Below the pieces are notes generated by a model. It saw nothing but the letters and a program-made list of their open reading frames with translations. It was not told the DNA's origin and made no database searches. DNA of 64,000 nt from Trifolium pratense. Its lineage: Eukaryota > Streptophyta > Magnoliopsida > Fabales > Fabaceae. The stretch covers positions 23,842,127 through 23,906,126 of the forward strand of contig NC_060062.1 in NCBI RefSeq assembly GCF_020283565.1, given 5' to 3'. Both the position numbers and the translations under genes were made by a program. Numbering within the stretch: position 1 is the stretch's first letter; every line of letters starts with the position of its first letter. Of the stretch, positions 5,401 through 60,000 are shown in pieces.

Positions 5401-7862
5401 TGAAACAATGTTTTAAGAACTGGACCGGAGGTCGAACCGGTGTGGCTATTGGTTCAAGGGTCAACCGGTCGGACCGGTTCAATCGTTATTAAACCGTTTA
5501 TATTGAACCGTTCATATAACTTTCTTATTTCACAACTAATAAACAAATTAATAAAGTAACATTAACAAAATAGAAAATTTAGAAACTTAAAATAAAGAAA
5601 TCATAAATCCAAAATGCATAATTTATACCAAATAATTATACATAAATTCGAAATTCATAATTCATATAAATTGTTAAACTTTAAATTGGACAAAATCATA
5701 TAAACTTTACATAATCATATAAACTTAAAATTGTTTGTTAAGAATTAAGAATATATTATACAATTAAGGCAAATATCAAGATATCAATGAATGCATATTA
5801 ATGCATATCAATAAGGTAGACATGTAAAAAATGCTGGTCAATGCATATCAGAAAAGTATATCAATTATATTAAATTGTATCAATTGTATTTAATAGGTTT
5901 TCCAATAAACTCAAATTATAGGCTAGACATTAAATTGTATTTAATATAGGTTTTCCAATATAGGCTATGGATTAATTCCTTACTACTCCTTTGTTTACTT
6001 CAGAAAAATATTAATTAAAGAAAACGAAAAAAAAATTGAAATTTTTTTTTTAATTTTCAAAAGATTCCGAACCGGCCGGTTTTTTCAAACCGCCCCCAGT
6101 TCACCGGTTCGAACGGTTCCGGACGGTTCGTACCGGTTTCAAGCGGTTTTTTTCCGGTTCTGCAGACTACCGGTTCTCAGCACTAGCCCGGACCGCTGCT
6201 GTGTCCGGTTCCCGGTTGAACCGGCCGATCTGGTCCGGTTCTTAAAACATTGGCGTGAAACTGCATGTGGCAGTTACAGCAGACGAGCTCGGTCCTTGTA
6301 AGGTGCACGTAGCTGTAGAGGATTCAAATCTCATGTGTAATAAGGTAACAAAAGGTTATAAAAGCTTGTGAGATAAGCTAATTCCTTCTTTTTACATGCT
6401 CAAGTTAAGTTATTATCCCTTTTGGGGGACCAATGTCTATGATGCTGTATCCATGAAAGACACATTAAATTTTGTTTCATTAAATTAAGTATCAATAAAG
6501 AATAAAGCAAAAAAATAAAGAAGAATTAAGAAAGTACTGATGGAATGAGAATCTATATCACATACCAAATAAAAATGCAAATAACCATATAGAAACAAAA
6601 TCATATAAAGTAGTATAGTTTTCTGGAAACTTCATCTTATCACAATCTGGATTAGCCTCCATCTTTCTCAAATTTGACTTCATTGTTCTTTCAGCATCCA
6701 GTGGTTCCACAAGTATGCCTAATTGGAAACAAATACAGTTAAAGACTCAACACGCGTACTCCAGGTAAAATCTGGTCGGGAAATGGATTAAGTGCAGTCA
6801 AGTTTGGTGTAGTCAAATCTTTGACACATTTTTTTATCTATATTTTATATAAAAATCTGAGTTAAATCTAGACCTCCTGATCTTAACCAGACGGTCACAT
6901 ATTATTGACTACATGCATGACTGCATGCTCCTCCGAATGCACATAATCCAGATCCATCTGGTCGTAGTTGATATATCTGATACATTAATTTTCTTTGACT
7001 CAAATGTCAAACATAGGATGTATTATTACTTACAGTGATATAGGATTCTTTTATACCATGAAAGATTGCTAGCACTTTTGAAGGCTGAAGGTCTAGTTGC
7101 AAGGACTTTGAGAGGAGTAGATTCCTCTTTGTTCAAATGTGTGCTTAGAAAATCATAGTGATGCACTATTATCACAGCCAAATCTGTTTGATAAAAAAAT
7201 AACAAAACTTATTAATTTTTTCGTATGTAATGTATAAATAACATTAAAACGACAATTAAAAAGGAACAGAAAAAATATAACTTACCGAAATATTCTCCAC
7301 GGATTGCAGTGTGAAGAATACTATCACCATCTTCTCGTACAAGATCTTGCAAAGTGACTCTCTCTTTAGAAATATGAGCAAGATAAGCAAAAGTTTGTTT
7401 TCTCCAATTAATAGCAGCTTGAAAAAGAGGCGTCTCACCGTGTTCATTTTTACGACTCAACAAATATATTCTCTCATTATTTCTCCCAATAATAAACTTA
7501 CATATTCTAGCAAAACCTCTTGATGCTGCAAAATGCAATGGCGTGTCACCGCGTTCGTTCTGCATTTCCAGTGCTTCAACTCTTTCATCAATATTTTCTT
7601 GTCGACTATTATGAATTAAAATTGCATTCACAAGCTCTTTAACAACATTTTCTTCATCTAAATCTATTGCTACATGTAATGCAGTGCCAGTTGAATCAGA
7701 GATTATTGCTCTGTGAGCTTGTTCTGGATATTCATAGTATAACATTATAACATTTTCCCATTTACCTTCCCATGTGTATTCACCTAGAAAATCATTTACT
7801 TCCTCAGGTGAAATGTTGAGTAATATGTTGTCTCTATCACCAGACATCATAGTTGATGTCAT
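2500..7862 (-). CDS. Ankyrin-repeat membrane protein with PGG domain (ACD6/ITN1-like)
   Basis: Seven exons join in frame: 7862-7286, 7183-7034, 6718-6566, 5011-4841, 4651-4487, 4359-3896 and 3108-2500, all with GT-AG introns, giving 762 residues. Exons 1-2 carry ankyrin repeats (TALHVAID, DTPLHFAASRG, ETPLFQAA, DSILHTAIRGEYF). Exon 3 holds a linker and exon 4 the HWVGFFPPNYETFHQFV stretch. Exon 6 has an acidic EQEQEQEQESESD run near residues 412-424, then further repeats (MTPFLVAAKNG, ENVLHVAV, NTVLHLAAEA). Exon 7 is the PGG domain: EWLKDTSESCSVVAALVAGV, PGG at 626-628, and about four membrane helpoints between residues 608 and 740. In this family, known plant members act at membranes in salicylate-linked defence or stress signalling; the role here is inferred. 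The start is the first ATG, about 70 bp from a TATATATA at 7932-7939. Intron 3 holds a hAT element. Confidence 0.9.
3538..3850. repeat. Possible LTR remnant in ankyrin-gene intron 6
   Basis: The stretch starts TGTTGACAAAGTG and contains a TATATATAAAGC core promoter-like box at 3757-3768 followed by a T/A-rich segment, an arrangement typical of small Ty1/copia LTRs. No target duplication or partner LTR is visible, so this is tentative. Confidence 0.3.
5213..5304. repeat. Two short palindromes in ankyrin-gene intron 3
   Basis: Positions 5270-5304 form a perfect 35-base palindrome, AATTACTGCGTTAACAC on each arm around one central base. Just upstream, AGAGTCGT (5213-5220) and its complement ACGACTCT (5228-5235) form a smaller hairpin. 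They are probably remains of a MITE; nearby wording (gaccgttcaataag) matches the dispersed MITE group seen elsewhere in the window. Confidence 0.7.
5406..6252. mobile_element. hAT-type non-autonomous element (847 bp) in ankyrin-gene intron 3
   Basis: The ends are inverted repeats, CAATGTTTTAAGAAC at the left and GTTCTTAAAACATTG at the right. A perfect 8-bp target duplication, GCGTGAAA, sits at 5398-5405 and 6253-6260, as expected for hAT transposases. Subterminal regions are packed with CCGGT/ACCGG-type words (accggttc, ggaccgg), while the centre (5500-6050) is A/T-rich with no open frame. It belongs to the same family as the two shorter copies at 51737 and 53962, but it is longer and clearly diverged. 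Confidence 0.9.
6784..6950. mobile_element. Small MITE, GGATTAAGTGCAGTCA family
   Basis: The ends TGGATTAAGTGCA and TGCACATAATCCA are near-perfect inverted repeats. The interior has TGACTGCATG and gaccgt-type words shared with copies at 41621-41809 and 58717-58905. It lies in intron 2 of the ankyrin gene (between exons ending at 7034 and starting at 6718). No clear target duplication was read. Confidence 0.6.
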
Positions 7863-37400: not shown

Positions 37401-37460
37401 TCAGTATTGAGGACATTTTATTAAACTCTTTTTTTTTTTTGACCAAACATTTTATTAAAC
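34446..37460. other. Intergenic, SINE pieces only
   Basis: No gene seen over 3 kb. SINE pieces: 35905-36000 (tttagtttagtagtgagggatttg...cattgtaaac), 36056-36110 (TAGCTCAACTGGTAAG, a good box A), 36345-36420 (gtttcgagtggttaataaactc and attcaagttcaa) and 36474-36575 (box B GGTTCGATCC and a full body with A-rich tail). Phrases with gttaacatg and catgttaa near 36738-36765 and 36868-36895 suggest a worn MITE. Confidence 0.5.
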
Positions 37461-38989
37461 TCTTGATAGTTAGTTTCAAGCATTATCTAGAATAAAATAT
37501 ACATTTTCAAATTAAGCTGCGGTGGATAAGTTAAATGGTCATTTAATTGGCCAAAATTAGAGCAACCCTCTCTATAATTGGCATAATTTGTTGATGTCAC
37601 AACAAGGTAACCGAAAGACAAAGTTCCATATGAGCAAACCAATGAAGGTGCATTTGGTATTGTGTTTTTAAAAAGTGATATTATTGCCTGTTAAAGTATG
37701 CAATATTTTATGAATCATTGGTTGGTTTAACGATAATTGCTGCGGGACATAATAGGAAGACTACAATTTGATCCTGACAACTATAATTGATTGGAAGAGG
37801 ACTGAAATCACTTGATGTCGGAACTAATCCACGAACGAGATTAGGTCTAGTGAGCCGAATACTGATGATAAAAAAAAAGTATGCAATATTTTTATTTTGA
37901 ACTAATTACTTTTGATATTTTTTCTTAAATTGTAGCATATTTTAGTTTCAGTATATTTTGATCGACTTTGTTTTTATCGGATTTTTTTTAAGTAGCTTAT
38001 TGATTAGAAATTTCACTCTTGAATCTTAAGAAATTTCACTCTTTTATGACACAGTTGTTAAGGAGCTAAATATTTTTTTTGAACGAAAAATATATTATTA
38101 AAGGAGGAGCATATACCCGTAAAGGAGGAGCCACAAAACAGAGATACTGTATATATGCGGAACACCGATAAAAATATCAAAACAAATACCACATAATAGA
38201 GTTTAAATATTGTAAACAAGTCTTACAACTTTGTGTCGAGAGCACCGGTTAGCACGACCGTTTAAACCATTCATGCATGCAGGTGTTACAATTCAATTGC
38301 ATCATTAATTAATTACTTGCACACGTGTCGTGTCCAATTAAAACACAAAGTAGCTAGCGCAACTAATACTCCAATTCCAATCCCAACCAACCAACCAACC
38401 AACGTTCAAACATGAAACTTGCAAATAATCTTCTTTTGAAAATTTAAATTTTACACTAATTAATTACTTTGTAGCATGCTCTCAGCCATGACGCTGTCAA
38501 TAATCAATATTATTGAAACAAATATAAAATTGAAGTAGAATTATGATTCCATGAATACAGTAGTAGAATGTATAAATAAAAGTACGTACACTAGATTAAT
38601 AAAACTAATGAAGTTAATCCTTGAAGTCATGAGGTGTAATTTTGGTACGGAAACCAAGATTATAAATATGAGATGCTTCAACAATAGTTCAAGTGACCAC
38701 GTAAAGTACAAAAGTACTTCTCCTTATCCATATTGCTCAATAGTCAATAATAGATAGATCAAATTCAATTATTGTCACGTTAGTTGCAATGTTACATTGC
38801 AATTATTGCCAATGTACGTTGTGATTGTGAGGGTAATTAAGAAGCAAAATTATTGACTTTGAGATGAACTACAAGATGATAGTTGATGTTGTACACAATA
38901 AAAAACAAAATAATTTAGAGTATGATTCATTTGATGATTGTAGACTCATATTTCAAATCATAGCGATTTTATAGTTGCTTTTACTAGGC

Positions 38990-39135
38990 ATTAAGCAAAC
39001 AGAAGCGTTCATGCTCTCGCATGAGCAACTCTTTCCCATGCTTCTCGCGCTACTTCGATGTTATTTTGAGTTGTATTACCGCGATTATTATTATGAATGA
39101 AATACTTTGAGTTTGCTTGCGCCCAAAAAAAAATT
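38990..39135 (+). repeat. LINE 3'-tail-like segment (also at 56086-56231)
   Basis: The stretch ends with attattattatgaatgaaatactttg...cttgcgcccAAAAAAAAA, the kind of non-coding tail and A-run that closes plant L1-type insertions. A hairpin, catgctctcgcatgagca, lies near its start. No coding part is attached. Confidence 0.4.
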
Positions 39136-40304
39136 ATTTGGGTTTTTGTCCTCTTTTGTACCAAGAAGAAAAAGCAAAATTATTGACTTTTCACTCTATA
39201 AGACTCAAATTGCAAAATATATAAATTCATGAGGTATTTAGTTCAACAAGAATTTGATTATTTTTTTTTTACCATTGAAGAAAATATAAGTTTATTTTTT
39301 TTTAACCTTGACATGATTCAAATATCAATTCTAAAATAGTCATTAGTGACATTTTAATTAGTAATAACTTCTTTTTTTCAATTCCATCAAAAAATCACGA
39401 TTAGCAATGTTGTGACTCATAGATCTATGAAGGTTGATTTTAAAAGTATTGATTTTGTCATTAAAAAATGATGAGTGTTGCAACTTGTTCATTCATGTAT
39501 AATTATCATATAATGAGTAGAAAGAGCATCACTTCATGTAAGTTTTTTTTTTTTTTAAAAAAGCAAAATATTAAGGAAACCATTTTAGGTTCTATAGCTA
39601 CCATCAAATGACTTTCACACTATCTCACGTAATAATTAAACAATCCATTCATATTTTACTCTAATATTTGAAATTTTAAATAGTAATACATAAGCAACTC
39701 ATTTTTATAATATTTGATTGTACTAAACCTTGTCACTATCTAGTATGGTCATCAATATACACAACAAATAATTTTTATGTGTATAGTATGATTCCTTATG
39801 TAAAATATATTTATAAAAAAAATACAAAATCCAACTTAAAATTAACCTTCAACTAATAGAGAAAAAAGCTAAGAAATTGTTCAATAAAACTATACTTTGG
39901 AACTCATTTGGGAAGTTTTAGTTTGACTTGAATTGTGAAGAGCGCATGCCTCTTGAATTATTGGGTATAAAACGTACCATTCAAGGCATGAATCACAAAT
40001 GATTTTAGGATGACATAGATAGGTTTCTGAATAATATATGTAATTTATGACTTGGAATGCCTTATTTTTCAAAGCTCCAACTCATCAAAAATAATACTGA
40101 AATTTAAAGGTTTATGATTTGTGGACATAGAACAGTGATAGCAACGGGTAGAGAAAGAAGAAAAATATGAGACATACTGATGATCATTAGATAAAAATTG
40201 ATCTTTAGATATTATACATATCCAAATCATCATAGTAATGACGATGTCAATTTAATAGAAGAAATAGAGTGAATCTCTACTTTTTTTTTATTTTAGCGAT
40301 ATCC

Positions 40305-40600
40305 ACTTTGTTAAGAGTGTCTCACATATGTTGGAAGATGGTCCGAATATATATATTTATAAAGTAAAGACAATTATCACCTTAAGTTAGTTTTATAGTG
40401 TTGAGTTAGACTCAACTTCTAATTCTAAGATAGTATCAAAACCTCCTCCACGTTCTATTTGGGCCACATCTTATTAGATTTTTAATCGGGTCACCCACTA
40501 TTTATATCCACGTATTAAGCTCAATAGTGTTGGGAGCGAGAGTGTATGTTAAGAGTTTCAAATCGGTTGCGAGATGGCCTAAATATATCTATACTAATAT
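40305..40600. repeat. LTR-like segment (also at 57401-57696)
   Basis: Wording such as gttaagagtgtctcacat, tgttgagttagactcaact, tttctaattctaaga and gttgggagcgagagtg...ttaagagtttcaaatcggttgcgagatggcc is familiar from a widespread plant LTR-type repeat, here rearranged. TGGCC AAATATA-type words occur at both ends of the segment, implying an internal duplication. Confidence 0.45.
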
Positions 40601-40617
40601 ATAAAGGGAAAACTTAC

Positions 40618-41110
40618 TTTTGGTAGCCTACCTGATTTGCCAGCATATTCGCTACTTGATTTGCCTCTCTCAACACATACGAAAGAGGAGAGTCGGAAAA
40701 ACCTTAGGAAGATTATGAATGTCTACAACTGTTTTGAATTGCAAATGAAAAGAACACTGCATTTGAACTACTTGAGTTGCAAGAAATGAGTTTAACACGA
40801 TAATATCTGTGAATGATTTATCCGTGTTGAAGGTAATTAATCTCATAAGGGTTGCCCTTAATTATCTCTGTTCCATAATTGAACAAGCACCAGTATCACT
40901 TGTAAAGCCAAAAGAAAATTATCTCTGTTCCATAATTGAACAAGCACCAGTATCACTTGTAAAGCCAAAAGAAAAATGACAACTACCATTTCGGACAATA
41001 CCTTCCGCGAAACTGCTATTGTGAATGTTACAAACAACGCCATCACAATTTAGCTTAACAAAATCAACATGAGAAACGGAGAATTAGGAGTTCATCCTAA
41101 CTCACGTCTT
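40618..41110 (-). pseudogene. LINE RNase H-like remnant with 57-bp internal duplication (also at 57714-58206)
   Basis: The minus strand encodes KLNCDG near 41055 and PLSYVLREANQVANMLANQV near 40688-40627, the first and last motifs of the RVT_3 RNase H-like domain. Frames between them are broken. A 57-bp segment (19 codons in one frame) is perfectly duplicated in tandem within 40858-40975. It starts about 20 bp after a Helitron-like 5' end at 40600. Confidence 0.7.
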
Positions 41111-41620
41111 CCCATCTTTACAAGTCAACAATAGCTTTTTCTTTCCTATTAGTAAGTAAAATCTGGTTGGTCTGTTATCCCAGCCTTGCATTCATCTGGT
41201 AAGAAATTACCTTTGAGAACTTGGGAGACACATTTGGTGAAAGATTCTCATACAATGAGGTGACTTTCTTCATTTTATTTTTGGAACACCACTTCATTCC
41301 TACTTATCTATAGATTTGTGAGGCAACTATTCCAACACTATTTCTCTTGTGACATTAATTTTCGTTTAAAAATTGCATATTTCGTGTTGCTAATTTCACC
41401 ATAAACACACTTGAATCCTCACCCATGAAAAAAAATTAAAAATAGTGACAGTGACCATAACATAGTAATTGAACATTTTTTGAACAAATACAGGCATATA
41501 ACTTATAAGTTACAATTCATATAAGATTTTATCTACGAACACAACCAATATGATAGCTTATTCACATAGTATTAGCCTATTTGATGTTATAGTAAGATTA
41601 TCACAAGTGTGTTTTTCGGA

Positions 41621-41809
41621 AATGGATTATGTGCAGTCACGTTTTCTGTGCAGTCACGATGTTTGTGACGGTCCGATCAAGAACAAAAGGTCTAATAAAT
41701 GTATGTTATTTATGTTTAATAATTATGCGCTTAAATTAGGACTTTCCGATCTTAATCGGTCAGCTAACGATGTTTGACTGCATAACTGCATGCACTTTAT
41801 GACTGCACT
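41621..41809. mobile_element. MITE, GGATTATGTGCAGTCA family (also at 58717-58905)
   Basis: The left end GGATTATGTGCAGTCA and right end TGACTGCACTAAATCC are near-perfect inverted repeats. Internally, gacggtccgatcaag and ttccgatcttaatcggtcagc mark the family. The copy at 6784-6950 is a relative. Confidence 0.75.
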
Positions 41810-42519
41810 AAATCCTGGTCCGGGTTTTTCTTTCTCATTACCGACCATCAGAAAGGGCAATTCATTCTAGGGGGAGCACAAATTTTTGAAAGCTAATTAT
41901 CATATATAGACACTATGGTAAACTTTGAACAACTAAGTTTGACAAGCAAATAAATTCCAGAAGAACCACCCTGTTACATATATAACTACTTAACTGAACT
42001 GCATTGACATCAAATTACATTGCAACAACAATGCATACAATCAAACAAATGAAAACAGATGCATGATTGATTGATACTATTAAATCCTCTCGACACTCCC
42101 TATTTGCATTTAAATTAAGTTCGGAGAAGCGGAGGAACACAGGCAAATACACAAACAAAAGATAAATTATAAATGACATACCTGTGTAGTGGCAGGACAT
42201 TCAATATAAACAAATAACTCTTAAATTCACATCCTAAAAACCATAAACTCATAAATCCGTCCATGATAAAAATTAGAACGACAAAAATGAAGAGATAAAT
42301 TTATTTTTTTGAAAAAGCAAATGAAGAGATCAAATAGGCAATGAACCTAATGGATGCAACAGCAACCATTGTCAAATTTCATGAAACCCTTGTTGTCAAT
42401 ACTCAAGTTAAACACTTCAGATGTAAATAAGCTATGCTGTTTATCCACGTAGATGTAACCAACTGCAGAATATAAACTATTCATAAAATCAATTTCCTAA
42501 AAAAAAAAAAAAAAAAAAA

Positions 42520-42584
42520 ATATCACTTCTTTTTCTTGAGTTGTTTAACTTTTGCATTAGGTTGGTCTTTGGATTTGCGTTTCT
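42520..42584 (-). pseudogene. 3' stub of RPS19
   Basis: Read on the minus strand this is the last 21 or so codons of the RPS19 gene plus stop (ending KVKQLKKKK), identical to 59620-59680. At 42585 homology stops abruptly, so the rest of the gene was never copied or has been lost. It marks the break of the 5.1-kb duplication. Confidence 0.9.
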
Positions 42585-44101
42585 TGAGTTGCCTCTGCTG
42601 CTTTGAAATTAGACCCTCTGCAGCTTTTGAAAACATGTATTGATGTGGTCTAATTTTGAAGAATAAAAACAATGAGGGTTTAAATCTACTTAGCTTAAAA
42701 TTTTGAGTTACTTTGGAAAAGAAATTTTTAAGTTAAGATAAGCTTTTGATGATTGTTTTATACAAGTAGATTATTGGTTTTGGGAATGAAATGTTTGAAC
42801 TAGCCATGTTTTATTGAGAGGCCGAGGCATGTTAGCATGTATAGTATATCTATTATGCTTCTTTTCAAAATTTTGATGCTATTTTAAAAAGAGAATGATC
42901 TTGGTTTAGAAGAAAACAATTAATTATTTAGTAACTCAATTAAATTTGCTTTGTTTGGAGATGAAACTAGAAACTTTTTATTTAGTAACCAAGCTAAAAC
43001 TCTTGAGTTAGAATGTTATTGCATAGCGTTTTACAGTAGGCTTGGAGTTATCCAATGTTACAACAAATGAATAATGTTCCTTTGGGAATATTGAGATATT
43101 CTCATGACTTTTCACTTTTCAGGTACTAAAATGAGGTGGTGAAGGAAGATACTCATTGGAGTGGATTAGATATAGCACACTCTTTAATTTCAAATATTAT
43201 AATCATGAATCATAGTTTTATAGGAATATAAGAGTAACAATCTCGCTTTTGCTTATGTAACTTACCAGTAAGTTCTTACTCTTTCTCCCTTCTCTTTTAC
43301 GATGTATCATTTCTGATTTCTGAATTTGCATCAACCATTGCCCTTTGTTTGTCTCAGTTTTTCATTTGCAATGTCTTCTTATGTCTATTTTCATTTTCAA
43401 TCTACATCTTTCAGATGTTGATGCTTTCAGCAAATTGAATCGATTATGGAGCAATTGAAGGCACTGAGATTTAGTTCATTAATTATAACACAGGTTTGAC
43501 ACAATGTATTTTTGTTTTCCAGTTCTGTAGTTTTTTATGTACAGTTTTGACACAATGTACAAAGTTATTTTGACATTATAAATTTTTGGTGCTAGCCTTT
43601 TGACAATCTAGTAATAAGTGTTGGAATTTGTCTTTATTATGATGTTTTGTATTTTGGATTACAATGTGGTTGTACTTTAATGACATTATTACTATATATA
43701 TGTTGAATTTGGCTATGGATATTGAATGTTGAATTTTAGTATTATGTTCTTGATGCAAGTTATGTTATATTGTTGGCATTGTGGGTTAGATTTTTTTAAT
43801 TAAAAAAAAGGATTTAAAATATATATAAAAAAAAAAACGCAGGTTTTTCAAAAAAATAAAAATAAATAAAGTTAAGATTTCACATCTGGTGGGCTTGGTC
43901 AGATGTAAAAGGTCCAATTTAATTTTAAAAAAAATAATATTTGATTTTCGCCTTGGTCAGAGGTAAAAAGTGTTTTTTTACATCTGACTACGCCAGATGT
44001 AAAACATGTATACTTACTAAGTCTCGTGCGCCTACATCTGACATTTTTCAGATGTAAAAAGTGTTTTTCGCCAGATGTAAAAAAGCTTTTTTCTACTAGT
44101 G
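42585..44101. mobile_element. CACTA-like element, right end only
   Basis: The right border reads TTTTTTCTACTAGTG (44087-44101), the complement of the CACTAGTAGAAAAA terminus of CACTA elements. Over 43885-44090, at least six direct or inverted copies of (c)cagatgtaaaa are the expected subterminal repeats. No matching CACTA left end was found, and the interior to 42585 has no transposase frame. How far the element extends leftwards is unknown. Confidence 0.65.
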
Positions 44102-44937
44102 AAACAAATAAGCATAAATTTCAATGGAAAAAGTTTCTAAGCAAGATTTCCCAAACACATAACACAAATTTCAATTATTTTTAAGCTAACCAAACACACC
44201 CCTAAATCCAATCATTGAAACACAACACACATTTATTACACTAAAAAATCAATAGTACTAACATTAACACGAATGAACAATAACAATGAAGATAGTAAAA
44301 GTAGGTAAAGTTTTGATTTTTAAGTTGTAAAGTTAGTAAAGTTTTGATTTTTAAGTTGTTCTTGATTGTTGGCTCTCTAGTTATCTTGGTTTAACATTCA
44401 TGGAGTGATCTTAAAAAAAAAAAAATTGAGTTTCTTTTTTGTATTTTTGTTCCTGTTAAAACATGACATTGAAATATAAAAAATCTCAATAGATGAAAAA
44501 CAAGCATAAAAGATTGTGTTTATGATGGAGGAAGAACAAGCATTATCTAACCTACTTTTGCTAATAACACCTTCAAACTCATTTTTCATCTTTTATGCTT
44601 GTTCTTCATAAAAGCATAAAAGGTTGTTCTTCATAAAAGGTTGCTGATGGTGGAAGAACAAGCATAAAAGGTTGTTGATAGTGTTGTGCAAGTTTTAACA
44701 AAGATAGAAAACATACCTGAATTAGGACGTGATTACACTGAAATCCAAAAACAAACTCGTATAAAATCCAAAGCTGAGTTGAAGAGGTGAAGAGAGAAGA
44801 GAGAGGGTTTTGGTGTTGGTGTGAGGAAAAATAAGAAAAGAAATGATTTATGAGAGAGAAGAGGTGAAGAGAGAAGAGAGAAATGGAATGGAATTGAAAT
44901 GTAGTAGTAGTACTGCTAACACAGATAAATTCAGAGC

Positions 44938-44992
<55 letters not shown>

Positions 44993-45887
44993 CACCATAT
45001 TAACCAACCAGCTTCATCCATCCTTTTACAAAGATAATAAACAAAAAGTAAAACAAATAAGCATAAATTTCAATGGAAAAAGTTTCTATGCAAGATTTCC
45101 CAAACACATAACACAAATTTCAATTATTTTTATGCTAACCAAACACACCCCTAAATCCAATCATTGAAACACAGCACACATTTATTACACTAAAAAATCA
45201 ATAGTACTAACATTAACACGAATGAACAATAACAATGAAGATAGTAAAAGTAGGTAAAGTTTTGATTTTTAAGTTGTAAAGTTAGTAAAGTTTTGATTTT
45301 TAAGTTGTTCTTGATTGTTGGCTCTCTAGTTATCTTGGTTTAACATTCATGGAGTGATCTTAAAAAAAAAAAAAATTGAGTTTCTTTTTTGTATTTTTGT
45401 TCCTGTTAAAACATGACATTGAAATATAAAAAATCTCAATAGATGAAAAACAAGCATAAAAGATTGTGTTTATGATGGAGGAAGAACAAGCATTATCTAA
45501 CCTACTTTTGCTAATAACACCTTCAAACTCATTTTTCATCTTTTATGCTTGTTCTTCATAAAAGCATAAAAGGTTGTTCTTCATAAAAGGTTGCTGATGG
45601 TGGAAGAACAAGCATAAAAGGTTGTTGATAGTGTTGTGCAAGTTTTAACAAAGATAGAAAACATACCTGAATTAGGACGTGATTACACTGAAATCCAAAA
45701 ACAAACTCGTATGAAATCCAAAGCTGAGTTGAGGAGGTGAAGAGAGAAGAGAGAGGGTTTTGGTGTTGGTGTGAAGAAAAATAAGAAAAGAAATTATTTA
45801 TGAGAGAGAAGAGGTGAAGAGAGAAGAGAGAAATGGAATGGAATTGAAATGTAGTAGTAGTACTGCCAACACAAATAAATTCAGAGC

Positions 45888-45949
<62 letters not shown>

Positions 45950-46845
45950 AAGCACCATATTAACCAACCAGCTTCATCCATCCTTTTACAAAGATAATAA
46001 ACAAAAAGTAAAACAAATAAGCATAAATTTCAATGGAAAAAGTTTCTAAGCAAGATTTCCCAAACACATAACACAAATTTCAATTATTTTTAAGCTAACC
46101 AAACACACCCCTAAATCCAATCATTGAAACACAACACACATTTATTACACTAAAAAATCAATAGTACTAACATTAACACGAATGAACAATAACAATGAAG
46201 ATAGTAAAAGTAGGTAAAGTTTTGATTTTTAAGTTGTAAAGTTAGTAAAGTTTTGATTTTTAAGTTGTTCTTGATTGTTGGCTCTCTAGTTATCTTGGTT
46301 TAACATTCATGGAGTGATCTTAAAAAAAAAAAATTGAGTTTGTTTTTTGTATTTTTGTTCCTGTTAAAACATGACATTGAAATATAAAAAATCTCAATAG
46401 ATGAAAAACAAGCATAAAAGATTGTGTTTATGATGGAGGAAGAACAAGCATTATCTAACCTACTTTTGCTAATAACACCTTCAAACTCATTTTTCATCTT
46501 TTATGCTTGTTCTTCATAAAAGCATAAAAGGTTGTTCTTCATAAAAGGTTGCTGATGGTGGAAGAACAAGCATAAAAGGTTGTTGATAGTGTTGTGCAAG
46601 TTTTAACAAAGATAGAAAACATACCTGAATTAGGACGTGATTACACTGAAATCCAAAAACAAACTCGTATGAAATCCAAAGCTGAGTTGAAGAGGTGAAG
46701 AAAGAAGAGAGAGGGTTTTGGTGTTGGTGTGAAGAAAAATAAGAAAAGAAATGATTTATGAGAGAGAAGAGGTGAAGAGAGAAGAGAGAAATGGAATGGA
46801 ATTGAAATGTAGTAGTAGTACTGCCAACACAGATAAATTCAGAGC

Positions 46846-46929
<84 letters not shown>

Positions 46930-47058
46930 AAGCACCATATTAACCAACCAGCTTCATCCATCCTTTTACAAAGATAATAAACAAAAAGTAAAACAAATAA
47001 GCATAAATTTCAATGGAAAAAGTTTCTATGCAAGATTTCCGAAACACATAACACAAAG
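44102..47058. repeat. Three tandem units of 0.95-0.98 kb plus a partial fourth
   Basis: Units start at 44102, 45051 and 46011 (949, 960 and 980 bp), and a fragment runs from 46991 to about 47058. They differ at a handful of bases and mainly in a (GA)n tract: 44941-44988 (48 bp), 45891-45945 (55 bp) and 46849-46925 (77 bp). On the minus strand each unit reads like a plant gene start: a CT-tract, a CT-rich leader and a consensus donor, CAG|GTATGTTTT (near 44717 in unit 1). An acceptor-like TTTTAACAG sits further on. Open frames of repeated Ser-Leu or Arg-Glu are translations of the GA tract, not genes. Confidence 0.93.
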
Positions 47059-48621: not shown

Positions 48622-50612
48622 TGTAACGACCCGATTTTTAGTAAATCGATATTTTATATATTTGCATATATTTTGGGTTAGTGTTAAATATTTATTTACG
48701 CGACCTATTATTATTTATCGCGAACATAAGTTTGTGAGCGAAACCTTTGTCGTGTTAGTGGGCTTGGGCGTGTGATAGAAGCTTAATGGGCTTAGGCTAT
48801 TGGGCTTGGTTCATGATCCAATAGAGAGTAGTATAAGTACCAAGTCAAACCAATGAATAGTCTCATAATTCATTTTTCATGAGAAGTTAGAAGTAGCAAG
48901 AGCAAGAGCAAGTAACCTAGGAGAGCTAGAAGAACTCGAGCAAGGAGAAGAGTTTAGAGGCAAGAATCATCATTCAATCTAAGGTGAGAGTGGTTTAGCA
49001 TAAGCTTGGGTGATCCAAGAGAGGGGAGGTGTCTAGCCTCCATTCCTGAACTCTCTCATCCAATTTCTTTGGGGTTTGGGTGAAGTTTCTTTATCATAAA
49101 CATGTCTTTTCATCTTAGTATGCTTAATGAACATCTAGGAGGGAATATGTATATGTTTGATGATGGTTTTGCATGTTTTTGCAACTTTGCTTATTTTGCA
49201 AGAAATTGACATGATTTTGTATGTGTGATGTGTTTTGGTGTTTTTGATTGTTGATACATGTATATATGTATGGTATATACATGATTGATCACTTGTTATG
49301 CATTTATAACATGTCTAGATGGATTTTTGAGTGGATTCAAGGTTAAACCGCCTTATTGAAACTCAAGAACAGATATTTTTCTGGTGTAGTTCGCTAAGCG
49401 ACCAGGAGTTCGCTGTAGCGAACATGTTCGCTGAAGCTCGCCAAAGCTCGCCATGAGCAGGTGACTTCCTGGTGTGGTTCGCCAAGTCTCGCTAAGGCTT
49501 CGCTTAGCGAAGGCCTCAGTGACAGCAATTTTTGCTGATGTTTGTAAAGTGCGTGTATCCATGTATTTGGTTTCGTTTTGGTTTGGAATTATTATATGTT
49601 TAATAATTGTGTTGTGTGATGGCATTTATATAAAATGTCAAAGAAGTATATGTATGTTTGTATATCGGGTTGTCCGATAAAGAAGAATATCAGTTTGTCT
49701 GATAAAGAAGTTTAATGGATTATGTTATCCATGTAGTGAGCAGTAGCTTCGTGCTAAGTGATTATCATATGTTTGGTAAATGCATGGCATTCATAAACTC
49801 ATGCATTATTTAGGGATATCAGACTTGTCTGATAAAGAAGGATATTGGACTTGTCCAATAAAGAAGGATATCAATGGTAAGTTCCTTGATAAAGAAGATG
49901 GTACCACATGCATTAGTCGTGTCTAGGTTGGCATGACATTGAATGTTTGGCATTAGTCGCATTTGAGTAAATGTGCAATTATGTGTTATGTGTTATGTGA
50001 GTTCTTTGTGTTGTCCGAGACGACGTGAAACTATCTGGTTGTGTATTTGTGAGTATGTGTTATCTGGTGTATTGCTTTTGAGGCATGTGTGTGAGTTAGT
50101 AATACGTGATAGGTTGAATATAGGTGCGTTTCTATATTCGTATGTATGTGATTATGTTTACTAACTCTCTACCTAATTGTTATGTGCTGGACCTTTGGGG
50201 GTTCAGGTATTCAGGTCGAGGTTTTCGACGAGTTTTAGCTGCAGATCGTTTTGGTGTGGAGCACTTTTGGTGAGGAGCTAGTGTAGGCTACCTTTGTATA
50301 GTTTTGATTAAGTTTAGATGGGTTGTGATGTATATTAGTGCTCTGGTATGTTGTAACATCGAGTCGGGGATCGTTTGTATTCCGTCGTATATCGATGTGA
50401 ACATCTTAACTTATGTTTTATGTTAATGAATTATCTTTGGAACTATTTTGTTCATTGCTTTGAAAATCCTTTATGTTAATGTTTTCCGCTGCGACGTTTC
50501 GTGTCGTGTGCACGATCGTTTTATAAAATGTTTTTCCGTAGCGCTCCGGCTACTTATCTTTAAAAAGTTTTTAAGATCACGTTTTTAAGGGTAGTTAGTT
50601 CGGGGTGTTACA
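48622..50612 (+). mobile_element. Solo LTR with 5-bp target duplication (1991 bp)
   Basis: The element starts TGTAACGACCCG and ends GGGGTGTTACA (TG...CA with TGTAAC/GTTACA inverted ends). It is flanked by GAATC at 48617-48621 and 50613-50617. It has no internal primer-binding site, gag or pol frame and no second LTR, so a solo LTR left by recombination is the simplest reading. Terminal TGTAAC...GTTACA is typical of Ty3/gypsy LTRs. It includes ttcgctaagcgac, ttcgctgtagcgaac and cttcgcttagcgaag palindromes (49390-49520), and a run of four variants of 'tatc(a/g)g(t/a)ttgtc(t/c)gataaagaag' at 49663-49880. Confidence 0.82.
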
Positions 50613-50898: not shown

Positions 50899-52668
50899 GT
50901 TAGCGAATGGTTGCCAAAAGCTCCTGGAGATGTTCGCCTCTCATTCTCTGCAGCGAACCTGATAGCGAATGTTCGCTGCATGGTTCGCTGTGGCGAATGG
51001 TTAGCAAACACTTATCAAAAGTTTCTGTTGATGTTCGCTGCATGCTCGCTGTGAGTTCGCTGCAGCGAACATTCCAAAATCAAAATTCATCCTTTAGCTT
51101 CAAATTTATTCCATGTGTTAAAACCTGGCAAAATGTTGGGAAAAAGTATCATTCGACAATATTTACTCAAATTTACTCAAAATACAAATATTTACACAAA
51201 TAGGGGATAAATTAGTACATGTTTCTTAAAGTTTAAGTTAATAAGTGTCTAAGTTTGATATGTATTTGTACTACTTTTGGGCACTTATCAAAAATACATA
51301 TATAATGAGCTTTTGGTTAAGTTGATATATGAAACTTTTTGGAACAAATTACAGCTTTTCTCTGCTCTAGCCACTTCCCCAGCAAATACATATTATAATA
51401 TCCCACATTAATTGTCTTGAGTTCCAATTTTGGGTGTGACAAAAACTGTTTTTATTTCTTTTTTTTTTTGGTTTGTTGAAAAAGGCTAAGATTTTATTAA
51501 AAAGAGACAGAAGAGACAAAAGGCCCAAAGAAATAGCACATGATTAGAAACAACCCCACCTTTCCCTGATTGTTCGCCGAATCAAAAACAAAAGCATAAC
51601 AAGTGTAGCAGTAGCCATCTCCTTAACCAACCAATAGAAAACGCAGCAAAAAAAACCGTATAAATGTGGGAAGAGAGAGAGAGTGAGAGAAACCTTTGTG
51701 AGTGGGGGAAAGGACCTTATGTGTGAGTGGTGAAACCAATGTTTTGAAAACCGGACCGGACCGGCCGGTCCGACCGGTTCGACCACGAACCGGTGCCCTC
51801 GGCGGTCCGGTCGACTAGCAAGAACCGCTAGTCAGTGGAACCGGTCAAAAACCGGTGTGAACCGGTATGAACCGGTGTGAACCGGTGTGAACCGGTGAAC
51901 CGGTGAACCGGAAAACCGGCCGGTTTTTCTCTCACTTAAAAAAAAAAAAAAAAAAAACTGATTTTTTAATTAAAAAAAACAATGGATTGAAATTGAAAGG
52001 TTAAAAAATCAAAAATCTTTCCTTTCCAACCATAGACTCAAACACGTGAAAAAATTATATGAACGGTTCAATATAAACGGTTCAATAACGGTTGAACCGA
52101 TCCGACCGGTTGACCCTTGAACCAGTTGTCACAACGGTTCGACCTCCGGTCCGGTTCTTAAAACATTGGGTGAAACTGAAAAGGGACCTTATGTGACTGA
52201 GTGAGAGAGAGAGAGAGTGAGAGAGAGCCACTATGCAATATAGAAGATGTGGTAGAAAGATTAAAATCGGTCGTGAATAATAATATTGGGGCACACTGAA
52301 AATGAGAAGAGGTTATATGAAAATAGAGGTTATATTGTAGGAGTAGGACCACACATATGATTGTGTGGAGATTCATTCATTCCGTACAACATAAAAGAAA
52401 CGAGTCTTACTTTAATAAAAAACTATCGTCCAAGTCGGATCATCTATTCCTTTACAAAAAATATCAAAACTATCTATTTATTTTAATTATGTGAATAAAT
52501 TGATAAATTAAATTTTATTCTCTCAAAAGTTTACTAAGTGAAGATCAATTTTATGGAGTTTTAAAAATTATCCTCTATTTGTCAAGTCTTTAATATTCTG
52601 AAAGTCGATCCTCTAAAGATTTAATCTTATCTTGCACAGTTTTTCCTCGCAAATTAAAATATAGAGGA
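50899..52668. repeat. 1.77-kb tandem duplication, copy A
   Basis: It matches 52771-54538 (offset 1870-1872) outside the hAT insertion that each copy carries. The left edge lies in a TTAGCGAATGG word within the TTCGCTG-rich segment. It includes the right end of the interrupted LTR-derived element, a LINE-tail-like A/T stretch (51440-51510) and GA-rich patches. No gene; a minus-strand frame across the GA patches is not credible. Confidence 0.95.
51737..52168. mobile_element. hAT-type MITE in copy A (432 bp)
   Basis: The ends are CAATGTTTTGAAAAC and GTTCTTAAAACATTG. The 8-bp duplication GGTGAAAC lies at 51729-51736 and 52169-52176. The corresponding site in copy B, 53601-53608, has a single GGTGAAAC and no insertion. 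Subterminal ccggtgtgaa repeats (51850-51910) and an A-run at 51939-51958 are present. Confidence 0.95.
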
Positions 52669-52770
52669 GGAAGTTGAAAATATATAGTAGTACCCAAAGT
52701 ACAATAGTAAGTAAAAGTTATATGCAAACGCGACCAAATATAATTAAACAAAATGCTTTTAAAGTTATAT

Positions 52771-54538
52771 GTTAGCGAATGGTTGCCAAAAGCTCCTGGA
52801 GATGTTCACCTCTCATTCTCTGCAGCGAACCTGATAGCGAATGTTCGCTGCATGGTTCGCTGTGACGAATGGTTAGCAAACACTTATCAAAAGTTTCTGT
52901 TGATGTTCGCTGCATGGTCGCTGTGAGTTCGCTGCAACGAACATTCCAAAATCAAAATTCATCCTTTAGCTTCAAATTTATTCCATGTGTTAAAACCTGT
53001 CAAAATGTTGGGAAAAAGTATCATTCGACAATATTTACTCAAATTTACTCAAAATACAAATATTTACACAAATAGGGGATAAATTAGTACATGTTTCTTA
53101 AAGTTTAAGTTAATAAGTGTCTAAGTTTGATATGTATTTGTACTACTTTTGGGCACTTATCAAAAATACATATATAATGAGCTTTTGGTTAAGTTGATAT
53201 ATGAAACTTTTTGGAACAAATTACAGCTTTTCTCTGCTCTAGCCACTTCCCCAGCAAATACATATTATAATATCCCACATTAATTGTCTTGAGTTCCAAT
53301 TTTGGGTGTGACAAAAACTGTTTTTATTTCTTTTTTTTTTTGGTTTGTTGAAAAAGGCTAAGATTTTATTAAAAAGAGACAGAAGAGACAAAAGGCCCAA
53401 AGAAATAGCACATGATTAGAAACAACCCCACCTTTCCCTGATTGTTTGCCGAATCAAAAACAAAAGCATAACAAGTGTAGCAGTAGCCATCTCCTTAACC
53501 AACCAATAGAAAACGCAGCAAAAAAAACCGTATAAATGTGGGAAGAGAGAGAGAGTGAGAGAAACCTTTGTGAGTGGGGGAAAGGACCTTATGTGTGAGT
53601 GGTGAAACTGAAAAGGGACCTTATGTGACTGAGTGAGAGAGAGAGAGAGTGAGAGAGAGCCACTATGCAATATAGAAGATGTGGTAGAAAGATTAAAATC
53701 GGTCGTGAATAATAATATTGGGGCACACTGAAAATGAGAAGAGGTTATATGAAAATAGAGGTTATATTGTAGGAGTAGGACCACACATATGATTGTGTGG
53801 AGATTCATTCATTCCGTACAACATAAAAGAAACGAGTCTTACTTTAATAAAAAACTATCGTCCAAGTCGGATCATCTATTCCTTTACAAAAAATATCAAA
53901 ACTATCTATTTATTTTAATTATGTGAATAAATTGATAAATTAAATTTTATTCTCTCAAAAGCAATGTTTTGAAAACCGGACCGGACCGGCCGGTCCGACC
54001 GGTTCGACCACGAACCGGTGCCCTCGGCGGTCCGGTCGACTAGCAAGAACCGCTAGTCAGTGGAACCGGTCAAAAACCGGTGTGAACCGGTATGAACCGG
54101 TGTGAACCGGTGTGAACCGGTGAACCGGTGAACCGGAAAACCGGCCGGTTTTTCTCTCACTTAAAAAAAAAAAAAAAAAACTGATTTTTTAATTAAAAAA
54201 AACAATGGATTGAAATTGAAAGGTTAAAAAATCAAAAATCTTTCCTTTCCAACCATAGACTCAAACACGTGAAAAAATTATATGAACGGTTCAATATAAA
54301 CGGTTCAATAACGGTTGAACCGATCCGACCGGTTGACCCTTGAACCAGTTGTCACAACGGTTCGACCTCCGGTCCGGTTCTTAAAACATTGCTCAAAAGT
54401 TTACTAAGTGAAGATCAATTTTATGGAGTTTTAAAAATTATCCTCTATTTGTCAAGTCTTTAATATTCTGAAAGTCGATCCTCTAAAGATTTAATCTTAT
54501 CTTGCACAGTTTTTCCTCGCAAATTAAAATATAGAGGA
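52771..54538. repeat. 1.77-kb tandem duplication, copy B
   Basis: Second copy of 50899-52668, separated from it by 102 bp. It differs by few substitutions (for example gttcgcc versus gttcacc near 52805) and lacks the copy-A hAT insertion but has its own. It is followed after 22 bp by copy 2 of the 5.1-kb duplication. Confidence 0.95.
53962..54391. mobile_element. hAT-type MITE in copy B (430 bp)
   Basis: As far as I can read, it is the same sequence as 51737-52168 apart from a 2-base shorter A-run. Its duplication is CTCAAAAG at 53954-53961 and 54392-54399. The matching position in copy A, 52522-52529, is the unoccupied CTCAAAAG. Confidence 0.95.
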
Positions 54539-54560
54539 TAATAACTTGAAGGATAATAAC

Positions 54561-57500
54561 TCTTGAGGTTAGTTTCAAGCATTATCTAGAATAAAATATA
54601 CATTTTCAAATTAAGCTGCGGTGGATAAGTTAAATGGTCATTTAATTGGCCAAAATTAGAGCAACCCTCTCTATAATTGGCATAATTTGTTGATGTCACA
54701 AGGTAACCGAAAGACAAAGTTCCATATGAGCAAACCAATGAAGGTGCATTTGGTATTGTGTTTTTAAAAAGTGATATTATTGCCTGTTAAAGTATGCAAT
54801 ATTTTATGAATCATTGGTTGGTTTAACGATAATTGCTGCGGGACATAATAGGAAGACTACAATTTGATCCTGACAACTATAATTGATTGGAAGAGGACTG
54901 AAATCACTTGATGTCGGAACTAATCCACGAACGAGATTAGGTCTAGTGAGCCGAATACTGATGATAAAAAAAAAGTATGCAATATTTTTATTTTGAACTA
55001 ATTACTTTTGATATTTTTTCTTAAATTGTAGCATATTTTAGTTTCAGTATATTTTGATCGACTTTGTTTTTATCGGATTTTTTTTAAGTAGCTTATTGAT
55101 TAGAAATTTCACTCTTGAATCTTAAGAAATTTCACTCTTTTATGACACAGTTGTTAAGGAGCTAAATATTTTTTTTGAACGAAAAATATATTATTAAAGG
55201 AGGAGCATATACCCGTAAAGGAGGAGCCACAAAACAGAGATACTGTATATATGCGGAACACCGATAAAAATATCAAAACAAATACCACATAATAGAGTTT
55301 AAATATTGTAAACAAGTCTTACAACTTTGTGTCGAGAGCACCGGTTAGCACGACCGTTTAAACCATTCATGCATGCAGGTGTTACAATTCAATTGCATCA
55401 TTAATTAATTACTTGCACACGTGTCGTGTCCAATTAAAACACAAAGTAGCTAGCGCAACTAATACTCCAATTCCAATCCCAACCAACCAACCAACCAACG
55501 TTCAAACATGAAACTTGCAAATAATCTTCTTTTGAAAATTTAAATTTTACACTAATTAATTACTTTGTAGCATGCTCTCAGCCATGACGCTGTCAATAAT
55601 CAATATTATTGAAACAAATATAAAATTGAAGTAGAATTATGATTCCATGAATACAGTAGTAGAATGTATAAATAAAAGTACGTACACTAGATTAATAAAA
55701 CTAATGAAGTTAATCCTTGAAGTCATGAGGTGTAATTTTGGTACGGAAACCAAGATTATAAATATGAGATGCTTCAACAATAGTTCAAGTGACCACGTAA
55801 AGTACAAAAGTACTTCTCCTTATCCATATTGCTCAATAGTCAATAATAGATAGATCAAATTCAATTATTGTCACGTTAGTTGCAATGTTACATTGCAATT
55901 ATTGCCAATGTACGTTGTGATTGTGAGGGTAATTAAGAAGCAAAATTATTGACTTTGAGATGAACTACAAGATGATAGTTGATGTTGTACACAATAAAAA
56001 ACAAAATAATTTAGAGTATGATTCATTTGATGATTGTAGACTCATATTTCAAATCATAGCGATTTTATAGTTGCTTTTACTAGGCATTAAGCAAACAGAA
56101 GCGTTCATGCTCTCGCATGAGCAACTCTTTCCCATGCTTCTCGCGCTACTTCGATGTTATTTTGAGTTGTATTACCGCGATTATTATTATGAATGAAATA
56201 CTTTGAGTTTGCTTGCGCCCAAAAAAAAATTATTTGGGTTTTTGTCCTCTTTTGTACCAAGAAGAAAAAGCAAAATTATTGACTTTTCACTCTATAAGAC
56301 TCAAATTGCAAAATATATAAATTCATGAGGTATTTAGTTCAACAAGAATTTGATTATTTTTTTTTTACCATTGAAGAAAATATAAGTTTATTTTTTTTTA
56401 ACCTTGACATGATTCAAATATCAATTCTAAAATAGTCATTAGTGACATTTTAATTAGTAATAACTTCTTTTTTTCAATTCCATCAAAAAATCACGATTAG
56501 CAATGTTGTGACTCATAGATCTATGAAGGTTGATTTTAAAAGTATTGATTTTGTCATTAAAAAATGATGAGTGTTGCAACTTGTTCATTCATGTATAATT
56601 ATCATATAATGAGTAGAAAGAGCATCACTTCATGTAAGTTTTTTTTTTTTTTAAAAAAGCAAAATATTAAGGAAACCATTTTAGGTTCTATAGCTACCAT
56701 CAAATGACTTTCACACTATCTCACGTAATAATTAAACAATCCATTCATATTTTACTCTAATATTTGAAATTTTAAATAGTAATACATAAGCAACTCATTT
56801 TTATAATATTTGATTGTACTAAACCTTGTCACTATCTAGTATGGTCATCAATATACACAACAAATAATTTTTATGTGTATAGTATGATTCCTTATGTAAA
56901 ATATATTTATAAAAAAAATACAAAATCCAACTTAAAATTAACCTTCAACTAATAGAGAAAAAAGCTAAGAAATTGTTCAATAAAACTATACTTTGGAACT
57001 CATTTGGGAAGTTTTAGTTTGACTTGAATTGTGAAGAGCGCATGCCTCTTGAATTATTGGGTATAAAACGTACCATTCAAGGCATGAATCACAAATGATT
57101 TTAGGATGACATAGATAGGTTTCTGAATAATATATGTAATTTATGACTTGGAATGCCTTATTTTTCAAAGCTCCAACTCATCAAAAATAATACTGAAATT
57201 TAAAGGTTTATGATTTGTGGACATAGAACAGTGATAGCAACGGGTAGAGAAAGAAGAAAAATATGAGACATACTGATGATCATTAGATAAAAATTGATCT
57301 TTAGATATTATACATATCCAAATCATCATAGTAATGACGATGTCAATTTAATAGAAGAAATAGAGTGAATCTCTACTTTTTTTTTATTTTAGCGATATCC
57401 ACTTTGTTAAGAGTGTCTCACATATGTTGGAAGATGGTCCGAATATATATATTTATAAAGTAAAGACAATTATCACCTTAAGTTAGTTTTATAGTGTTGA

Positions 57501-59680
57501 GTTAGACTCAACTTCTAATTCTAAGATAGTATCAAAACCTCCTCCACGTTCTATTTGGGCCACATCTTATTAGATTTTTAATCGGGTCACCCACTATTTA
57601 TATCCACGTATTAAGCTCAATAGTGTTGGGAGCGAGAGTGTATGTTAAGAGTTTCAAATCGGTTGCGAGATGGCCTAAATATATCTATACTAATATATAA
57701 AGGGAAAACTTACTTTTGGTAGCCTACCTGATTTGCCAGCATATTCGCTACTTGATTTGCCTCTCTCAACACATACGAAAGAGGAGAGTCGGAAAAACCT
57801 TAGGAAGATTATGAATGTCTACAACTGTTTTGAATTGCAAATGAAAAGAACACTGCATTTGAACTACTTGAGTTGCAAGAAATGAGTTTAACACGATAAT
57901 ATCTGTGAATGATTTATCCGTGTTGAAGGTAATTAATCTCATAAGGGTTGCCCTTAATTATCTCTGTTCCATAATTGAACAAGCACCAGTATCACTTGTA
58001 AAGCCAAAAGAAAATTATCTCTGTTCCATAATTGAACAAGCACCAGTATCACTTGTAAAGCCAAAAGAAAAATGACAACTACCATTTCGGACAATACCTT
58101 CCGCGAAACTGCTATTGTGAATGTTACAAACAACGCCATCACAATTTAGCTTAACAAAATCAACATGAGAAACGGAGAATTAGGAGTTCATCCTAACTCA
58201 CGTCTTCCCATCTTTACAAGTCAACAATAGCTTTTTCTTTCCTATTAGTAAGTAAAATCTGGTTGGTCTGTTATCCCAGCCTTGCATTCATCTGGTAAGA
58301 AATTACCTTTGAGAACTTGGGAGACACATTTGGTGAAAGATTCTCATACAATGAGGTGACTTTCTTCATTTTATTTTTGGAACACCACTTCATTCCTACT
58401 TATCTATAGATTTGTGAGGCAACTATTCCAACACTATTTCTCTTGTGACATTAATTTTCGTTTAAAAATTGCATATTTCGTGTTGCTAATTTCACCATAA
58501 ACACACTTGAATCCTCACCCATGAAAAAAAATTAAAAATAGTGACAGTGACCATAACATAGTAATTGAACATTTTTTGAACAAATACAGGCATATAACTT
58601 ATAAGTTACAATTCATATAAGATTTTATCTACGAACACAACCAATATGATAGCTTATTCACATAGTATTAGCCTATTTGATGTTATAGTAAGATTATCAC
58701 AAGTGTGTTTTTCGGAAATGGATTATGTGCAGTCACGTTTTCTGTGCAGTCACGATGTTTGTGACGGTCCGATCAAGAACAAAAGGTCTAATAAATGTAT
58801 GTTATTTATGTTTAATAATTATGCGCTTAAATTAGGACTTTCCGATCTTAATCGGTCAGCTAACGATGTTTGACTGCATAACTGCATGCACTTTATGACT
58901 GCACTAAATCCTGGTCCGGGTTTTTCTTTCTCATTACCGACCATCAGAAAGGGCAATTCATTCTAGGGGGAGCACAAATTTTTGAAAGCTAATTATCATA
59001 TATAGACACTATGGTAAACTTTGAACAACTAAGTTTGACAAGCAAATAAATTCCAGAAGAACCACCCTGTTACATATATAACTACTTAACTGAACTGCAT
59101 TGACATCAAATTACATTGCAACAACAATGCATACAATCAAACAAATGAAAACAGATGCATGATTGATTGATACTATTAAATCCTCTCGACACTCCCTATT
59201 TGCATTTAAATTAAGTTCGGAGAAGCGGAGGAACACAGGCAAATACACAAACAAAAGATAAATTATAAATGACATACCTGTGTAGTGGCAGGACATTCAA
59301 TATAAACAAATAACTCTTAAATTCACATCCTAAAAACCATAAACTCATAAATCCGTCCATGATAAAAATTAGAACGACAAAAATGAAGAGATAAATTTAT
59401 TTTTTTGAAAAAGCAAATGAAGAGATCAAATAGGCAATGAACCTAATGGATGCAACAGCAACCATTGTCAAATTTCATGAAACCCTTGTTGTCAATACTC
59501 AAGTTAAACACTTCAGATGTAAATAAGCTATGCTGTTTATCCACGTAGATGTAACCAACTGCAGAATATAAACTATTCATAAAATCAATTTCCTAAAAAA
59601 AAAAAAAAAAAAAAAAATATCACTTCTTTTTCTTGAGTTGTTTAACTTTTGCATTAGGTTGGTCTTTGGATTTGCGTTTC
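54561..59680. repeat. 5.1-kb segmental duplication, copy 2
   Basis: Partner of 37461-42584 with the same internal pieces: SINE 54822-54972, LTR-like 57401-57696, RNase H remnant 57714-58206 with the 57-bp tandem repeat, and MITE 58717-58905. Its right end runs into the intact RPS19 gene, so this is the natural 3' flank of that gene and probably the source copy at this end. Confidence 0.95.
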
Positions 59681-60000
59681 CTGGTGAGAGCGAATTCACC
59701 AAACTTATGACCCACTTTTCCTTCAGTGATCTTACAGCGAATAGTGGTTTTCCCATTGTAAATTTTGACCTGGGAATCAACAAATTCTGGCAAGATAGTG
59801 GATCTCCGCGACCAAATGGTTTTGTTCTTCAAAAGTTCTGGATTCTTTTTCATCTTATGTAGGAATGCATCTATAAACGCTGGTTTGCGCGACACAACAG
59901 GAGCCGACGACGCCAGCTTCTTAGCAACAGGATTTGCAGTGTCACCGGCGATTCCAAGAAACTGCTTGTTCAGAACCCTAAGCAAATCGGTTGGCCTCAT
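59620..60000 (-). CDS. RPS19: Mitochondrial ribosomal protein S19, nuclear-encoded
   Basis: A single coding exon of 126 residues. The S19 core is unmistakable: [52 protein letters not shown] and [13 protein letters not shown]. The wording is that of the plant mitochondrial protein rather than the chloroplast or cytosolic ones. Mitochondrial S19 is usually about 93 residues; the roughly 40 extra N-terminal residues, with Arg, Lys and Ser/Ala and few acids, are a likely import presequence. The protein binds 16S-type rRNA in the head of the small subunit. An acceptor TATGAATAG at 60006 just before the ATG suggests a 5'-UTR intron. A 23-base A-run lies directly past the stop in the 3' UTR. Confidence 0.93.

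Follow-up and report, generated by a model that had tools for sequence, protein, structure and literature searches.

A hAT MITE with reciprocal filled and empty sites in a red clover tandem duplication, with a second locus version that bears on its history

Results

Two tandem units carry the same element at different positions

We analyzed a stretch of 64,000 nucleotides from the genome of red clover (Trifolium pratense; assembly GCF_020283565.1, NC_060062.1, positions 23,842,127 to 23,906,126), hereafter the window. Two tandem units with a short spacer between them lie in its last quarter, and each is interrupted by one copy of the same element (Table 1). Once the element and one copy of its target site duplication (TSD) are removed from each, the units align over 1330 bp with six substitutions and no indels. 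Open reading frames near the locus are all short. Other repeats lie close by, among them a 5.1-kb direct duplication (37458-42586 and 54558-59683, 99.86% identity), the second copy of which begins 20 bp past unit 2, and a unit of about 0.95 kb that forms three tandem repeats with long GA/CT runs (44098-47057).

The two elements, A and B, occupy different places in their units, and each unit keeps a clean empty site at the place where its partner is filled. Both empty sites consist of an exact single TSD with no bases missing. They are therefore not deletion scars, a reading that we considered and rejected. Between A and B there are no substitutions, and the only difference is one 2-base gap in the A-run (20 versus 18). 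This reciprocal pattern had been described in the initial annotation, whose coordinates for the units, elements, TSDs, and empty sites were all confirmed by alignment. It had also held that the locus gives the exact ends of the element, which the TSDs and clean empty sites support, that the copies differ in A-run length alone, which we likewise find, and that the family moved recently, which agrees with the lack of substitutions between A and B. Two outcomes had been named as counting against it: empty sites that lack bases, and a divergence of more than a few percent between the MITEs. We instead observe a single complete TSD at each empty site and two elements without a substitution.

Table 1. 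Features of the locus and related elements.
Feature	Position	Strand	Description
Tandem unit 1	50899..52668	+	1330 bp minus element A and one TSD copy
Spacer between units	52669..52770	+	102 bp; identical in second locus version
Tandem unit 2	52771..54538	+	1330 bp minus element B and one TSD copy
hAT MITE copy A	51737..52168	+	432 bp; 24-bp TIRs, 22/24 match; A-run 20
hAT MITE copy B	53962..54391	+	430 bp; same orientation as A; A-run 18
TSD left of A	51729..51736	+	GGTGAAAC; 8 bp, perfect
TSD right of A	52169..52176	+	GGTGAAAC; 8 bp, perfect
Empty site A in unit 2	53601..53608	+	GGTGAAAC, single
TSD left of B	53954..53961	+	CTCAAAAG; 8 bp, perfect
TSD right of B	54392..54399	+	CTCAAAAG; 8 bp, perfect
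Empty site B in unit 1	52522..52529	+	CTCAAAAG, single; filled in unit 1 of second version
Private base A, copy A	51981..51981	+	Element position 245; G in 35/35 other aligned copies
Private base A, copy B	54204..54204	+	Element position 245; same as copy A
MITE relative	5406..6252	-	847 bp; same kind of ends; TSD GCGTGAAA
Coding hAT element L066	126-3886 of L066, C2:11.45 Mb		3761 bp; TSD CTTTGAAT both sides
L068			2211 bp; deletion form; TSD GTATTAAT

The element belongs to a hAT MITE family with many near-identical copies

By its features, the element is a hAT MITE: short, non-coding, and present in many near-identical copies. That label, given initially, is supported by the terminal inverted repeats (TIRs), the 8-bp TSDs, a bias in the TSD sequence, and a coding relative with hAT domains. 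The ends of the element read CAATG...CATTG, and its 24-bp TIRs are identical at 22 positions; CARNG is the consensus of hAT TIR ends. ACCGG words are numerous near the element ends (15, counted on either strand). The longest stop-free stretch is 48 codons. The RNA fold of the MITE has an energy of -171.6 kcal/mol (z = -10 relative to 100 shuffled sequences), a strong fold that is expected because the element is built on an inverted repeat.

We searched a genome of 413,558,439 bases (413.6 Mb) in 90 contigs and aligned the best 40 of 980 first-look candidates, five of which come from this locus and its second version. The 8-bp TSD matches at all eight positions in 38 of the 40 aligned copies and at seven in one more; L008, which has a damaged end, has none. 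When the second locus version and L008 are left out, 36 independent insertions show a bias toward nTnnnnAn, with T at position 2 in 27 and A at position 7 in 27 (P = 3e-7 for each, assuming a background of 0.33). This Ac-type pattern is the one reported for Hermes (PMC10368747, PMC2803484). Site A is an exception, with G at TSD position 2.

Counted by exact word, at least 48 copies occur genome-wide. The TIR word has 400 genome matches (reversed control, 0), not all of which come from the MITE's own subfamily. Among the first 100 of these 400 places, many inverted TIR pairs 0.8-1.3 kb apart lie on C1 and C2, so a longer non-autonomous subfamily is common. The window holds an 847-bp relative, a non-autonomous member of this hAT group that exceeds the MITE in length and resembles it over the last 118 bp (92%) and the first 189 bp (71%) of the MITE. 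Four unlinked copies (L002, L003, L005, and L034) are mutually identical in their tree rows, so the family has a common active sequence, from which the locus pair differs. A literature search on red clover MITEs or hAT elements and on the terminal letters of the family found no paper on it, and a term search for Trifolium in the main text of a paper on 207 plant genomes (PMC12550479) found no mention.

A coding relative has matching ends

We searched the genome for PF05699, scored the best 150 of 362 candidates, and compared these places by eye with the 100 listed of the 400 TIR places, noting one neighboring pair 2.66 kb apart on C2. The coding hAT element L066, found in that stretch, has the left end of the MITE, with the first nine bases identical, and a right end that is one base off (TATTG). 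Its ends are 88% identical to MITE positions 315-432 and 70% identical to positions 1-233. The transposase domains are split over two separate open frames within one element bounded by TIRs and TSDs: a frame of 537 residues with DUF659 (E = 5e-55) and zf-BED (E = 1e-5), and a separate frame of 105 residues with Dimer_Tnp_hAT (E = 3e-14). No PDB chain matched the 537-residue frame at 0.01. L066 resembles the MITE in its first nine bases, its TIRs, and its ACCGG-rich subterminal ends but, unlike it, is 3761 bp long and carries transposase domains. We treat it as a coding relative and a candidate parent that may be active, and a transposase of the L066 type may have moved the copies at the locus.

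The second locus version differs in which sites are filled

A second version of the locus lies at C4:22,726,500-22,736,000 (L009), collinear with the window locus and 1.16 Mb from it. There, both insertions are present in unit 1, whereas unit 2 carries B alone. In L009 coordinates, GGTGAAAC occurs at 4171 and 4609 and singly at 6479, and CTCAAAAG occurs at 4962, 5397, 6834, and 7269. Across the two versions, each unit 1 has site A filled, each unit 2 has it empty, and three of the four units have site B filled. The reciprocal pattern of the window belongs to one of two locus versions.

Around the locus, the two blocks show many differences in transposon presence or absence. At 48622-50612, the window has a solo LTR (TGTAAC...GTTACA) with the TSD GAATC; at the same place, the second version has a full LTR-gag-LTR element without pol, with the same TSD, and the LTRs of this element differ at 2 of 1991 bases. 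A 1.3-kb palindromic stretch with internal tandem repeats (22825-24092) is skipped by the second version in the alignment chain.

We consider that the second version is probably the other haplotype, at odds of roughly three to one. A real paralogous segmental duplication would be consistent with its place on the same pseudomolecule, 1.16 Mb away, and with a 1.5-kb probe at 24.10 Mb that has no partner, so that the block either ends before that point or has a local gap there. Against this, order and orientation are conserved across a compared length of 74 kb (22.690-22.764 Mb, 90-99.9% identity), with a further collinear point at 23.600/22.451 Mb (94%), the collinearity having been established at sampled points. 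The many transposon differences, including the solo LTR versus the full element with the same TSD, also argue against paralogy. Furthermore, the red clover assembly ARS_RCv1.1 is described as coming from an outbred plant, with 10.4% of BUSCOs duplicated (PMC9650271), and is named among assemblies with many haplotypic duplications (PMC10548655). On this evidence, a paralogous duplication is unlikely.

Five differences between unit 1 and unit 2 are fixed across both versions, and all lie in the first 230 bp. The remaining 1100 bp have no unit-fixed differences but hold four of the six version-specific changes (Fisher one-sided P = 0.045, with the 230-bp cut chosen post hoc). Because unit-fixed differences are confined to the first 230 bp and version-specific changes lie mostly beyond it, the data suggest that the 3' part of the units had already been homogenized between units. 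A candidate outgroup for polarizing the units (C4:6.89 Mb) was rejected, as it covers core positions 1237-1330 alone, at 79-84%, which is too little.

Copies at the locus share a private base

At element position 245, all five locus copies in the 40-copy alignment have A, and all 35 others have G. A 24-base word with A245 occurs five times in 413.6 Mb, always at the locus or its second version, and the corresponding word with G245 has 43 matches, all elsewhere (reversed controls, 0 for both). With 0 of 43 exact-word copies, the frequency of A245 elsewhere is below 6.7% at 95%. In the copy tree, the five locus copies form one group with support of 91/81; the group depends on a single substitution, and the bootstrap had not settled. 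A245 sits at a CpG, and the partner base of that CpG is changed in 3 of the 35 copies. Taking the 43 other exact-word copies as a lower bound on family size, approximately 0.0005 further copies are expected by chance at 2.2 kb or less from any one copy, and approximately 0.01 copy pairs within that distance genome-wide.

In the second version, the B copies of unit 1 and unit 2 (B1 and B2) are identical over 427 bp, including A-runs of 15, compared with 18 in the B2 of the window. Zero differences over this length would be observed with a probability of 0.20 at the fixed divergence between units (5/1330) and of 0.0001 at 5/230. Of 35 other copies, 2 have an A-run of 15, and 97 of 595 random copy pairs share their A-run length.

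Discussion

The initial annotation placed the duplication first and the two insertions after it. This order holds at site A: since A is present in unit 1 and absent from unit 2 of each version, the pattern fits an insertion after the duplication and before the two versions parted. At site B, the same order is unproven. Because B is filled in three of four units, the window by itself does not tell whether B came before or after the duplication, and either gene conversion or the loss of an older B from unit 1 of the window is needed.

We favor a history in which duplication was followed by seeding and a local hop, and then by conversion of B in the second version, and we give the whole of it a probability of about one half. 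A 1.33-kb segment would first have been tandemly duplicated. One member of the family would then have inserted in one of the units, with a transposase such as that of L066, and a short-range hop would have put a second copy in the other, leaving A in unit 1 and B in unit 2. Either copy may have been the donor. The donor could have been kept if the element moved while the DNA was being replicated or afterwards, or if the gap was repaired from the sister. After the versions parted, unit 2 of the second version would have given B, with its TSD, to unit 1 by gene conversion, resulting in A+B+ and A-B+ units.

For site B, we favor copying within the second version, with unit 2 as donor and unit 1 as recipient, over clean loss from unit 1 of the window. 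The identity of B1 and B2 there, A-runs included, and the signs of earlier homogenization in the 3' part of the units speak for it. The putative conversion tract is marked by the B insertion and the A-run length alone, with no substitution near site B, and is bounded on the left by the length of a GA repeat at core position 864. The A-run match between B1 and B2 is weak evidence for conversion because 97 of 595 random pairs agree as well, and A-runs are error-prone. We hold tentatively, at somewhat less than even odds, that the element and TSD at site B spread by gene conversion to the neighboring unit without transposing, at a few hundred bases from a sister copy that had hopped locally.

A different order of events would make B older than the tandem duplication, which would itself have produced B1 and B2; A would have entered unit 1 later, and the window version would have lost B1 cleanly. 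Such a history agrees with the filling of site B in three of four units and accounts for B1 of the second version without any transfer from one unit to the other. However, hAT excision normally leaves a scar, yet site B of the window is perfect. Among 128 sequenced Ds excision footprints, all 28 types are reported as short deletions or palindromic insertions (PMC5873905). Because Ac/Ds excision leaves footprints and site B has none, B1 would have to have been lost through recombination with a haplotype lacking B, or else by a rare precise excision. The identity of B1 and B2 over 427 bp is a further difficulty, most of all at the rate of the first 230 bp. We therefore regard an older B as unlikely.

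The local hop itself, offered initially as a guess, is probable. It is supported because A245 is confined to the copies of this locus, being present in 5 of 5 copies here, 0 of 35 aligned copies elsewhere, and 0 of 43 exact-word copies. The argument rests on a single diagnostic base, which, at a CpG, could have changed twice, and conversion between the MITE copies could also have spread it. Two independent arrivals are conceivable, from an A245 source elsewhere that is absent or missing in the assembly, or with A245 arising twice. Absence from the assembly is not full proof, position 245 lies at a CpG, and active sources exist, as the four identical copies at unlinked sites indicate. Nevertheless, A245 was found in none of the 43 exact-word copies elsewhere, and chance would place only approximately 0.01 pairs at 2.2 kb or less in the whole genome, which makes independent arrivals improbable.

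The least probable history is one in which B1 transposed to site A after its own replication, yielding twin sister products, A+B1+ and A+B1-, a model that reportedly comes from maize Ac genetics. Its predicted states are exactly the two unit-1 states seen, all four unit states fit if B predates the duplication and a single hop occurred, the hop is backed by A245, and Ac/Ds is reported to tend toward linked sites (PMC5873905), but a scar-free donor site and the survival of both sister products as the two versions are required, the problem of B1 and B2 identity is inherited, and the reading asks for more luck.

TSDs and empty sites are usually the only basis on which insertion histories are reconstructed. 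At this locus, the window taken by itself tells a tidy story that is partly misleading because, given the second version, one filled site must have been copied or lost by recombination. A245 is direct evidence, at the sequence level, that a plant hAT MITE probably hopped over a short range. If the favored conversion of B is true, a single 3.6-kb stretch in two versions would show a MITE multiplying by two routes, and transposition events could not be counted from intact TSDs alone. With due care, haplotypes retained in the assembly of an outbred plant can serve as a population sample that is already built in. A literature search for transposable elements carried between tandem repeats by conversion produced no paper matching four or more of its five terms. 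We see a hAT MITE with related empty sites as a known kind of finding, and the two-version, two-site case as a good specimen of it rather than a new mechanism.

Three known systems provide a comparison. Like other hAT MITEs, such as Mar of Drosophila willistoni (PMC3517528), the element is short and non-coding, with imperfect short TIRs, 8-bp TSDs, and a coding relative. Mar has another TIR sequence and another host, and its TSDs are described as nnnTAnnn, of the Buster type (PMC3517528), compared with nTnnnnAn in the family studied here. The maize Ac/Ds elements are reported to make short-range moves to linked sites (PMC5873905), and a similar movement is deduced at our locus from the copies themselves. 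Footprints remain after Ac/Ds excision, but the empty sites at the locus are clean; we therefore read them as sites that were probably either never filled or restored by homology. Finally, related empty sites (RESites) have been used to prove MITE insertion (for example, PMC3562271, PMC3626606, and PMC2213677), and here, too, paralogous or allelic empty sites fix the element ends. What sets this locus apart from those cases is the presence of two reciprocal empty sites in one tandem pair, together with a third state in the second version.
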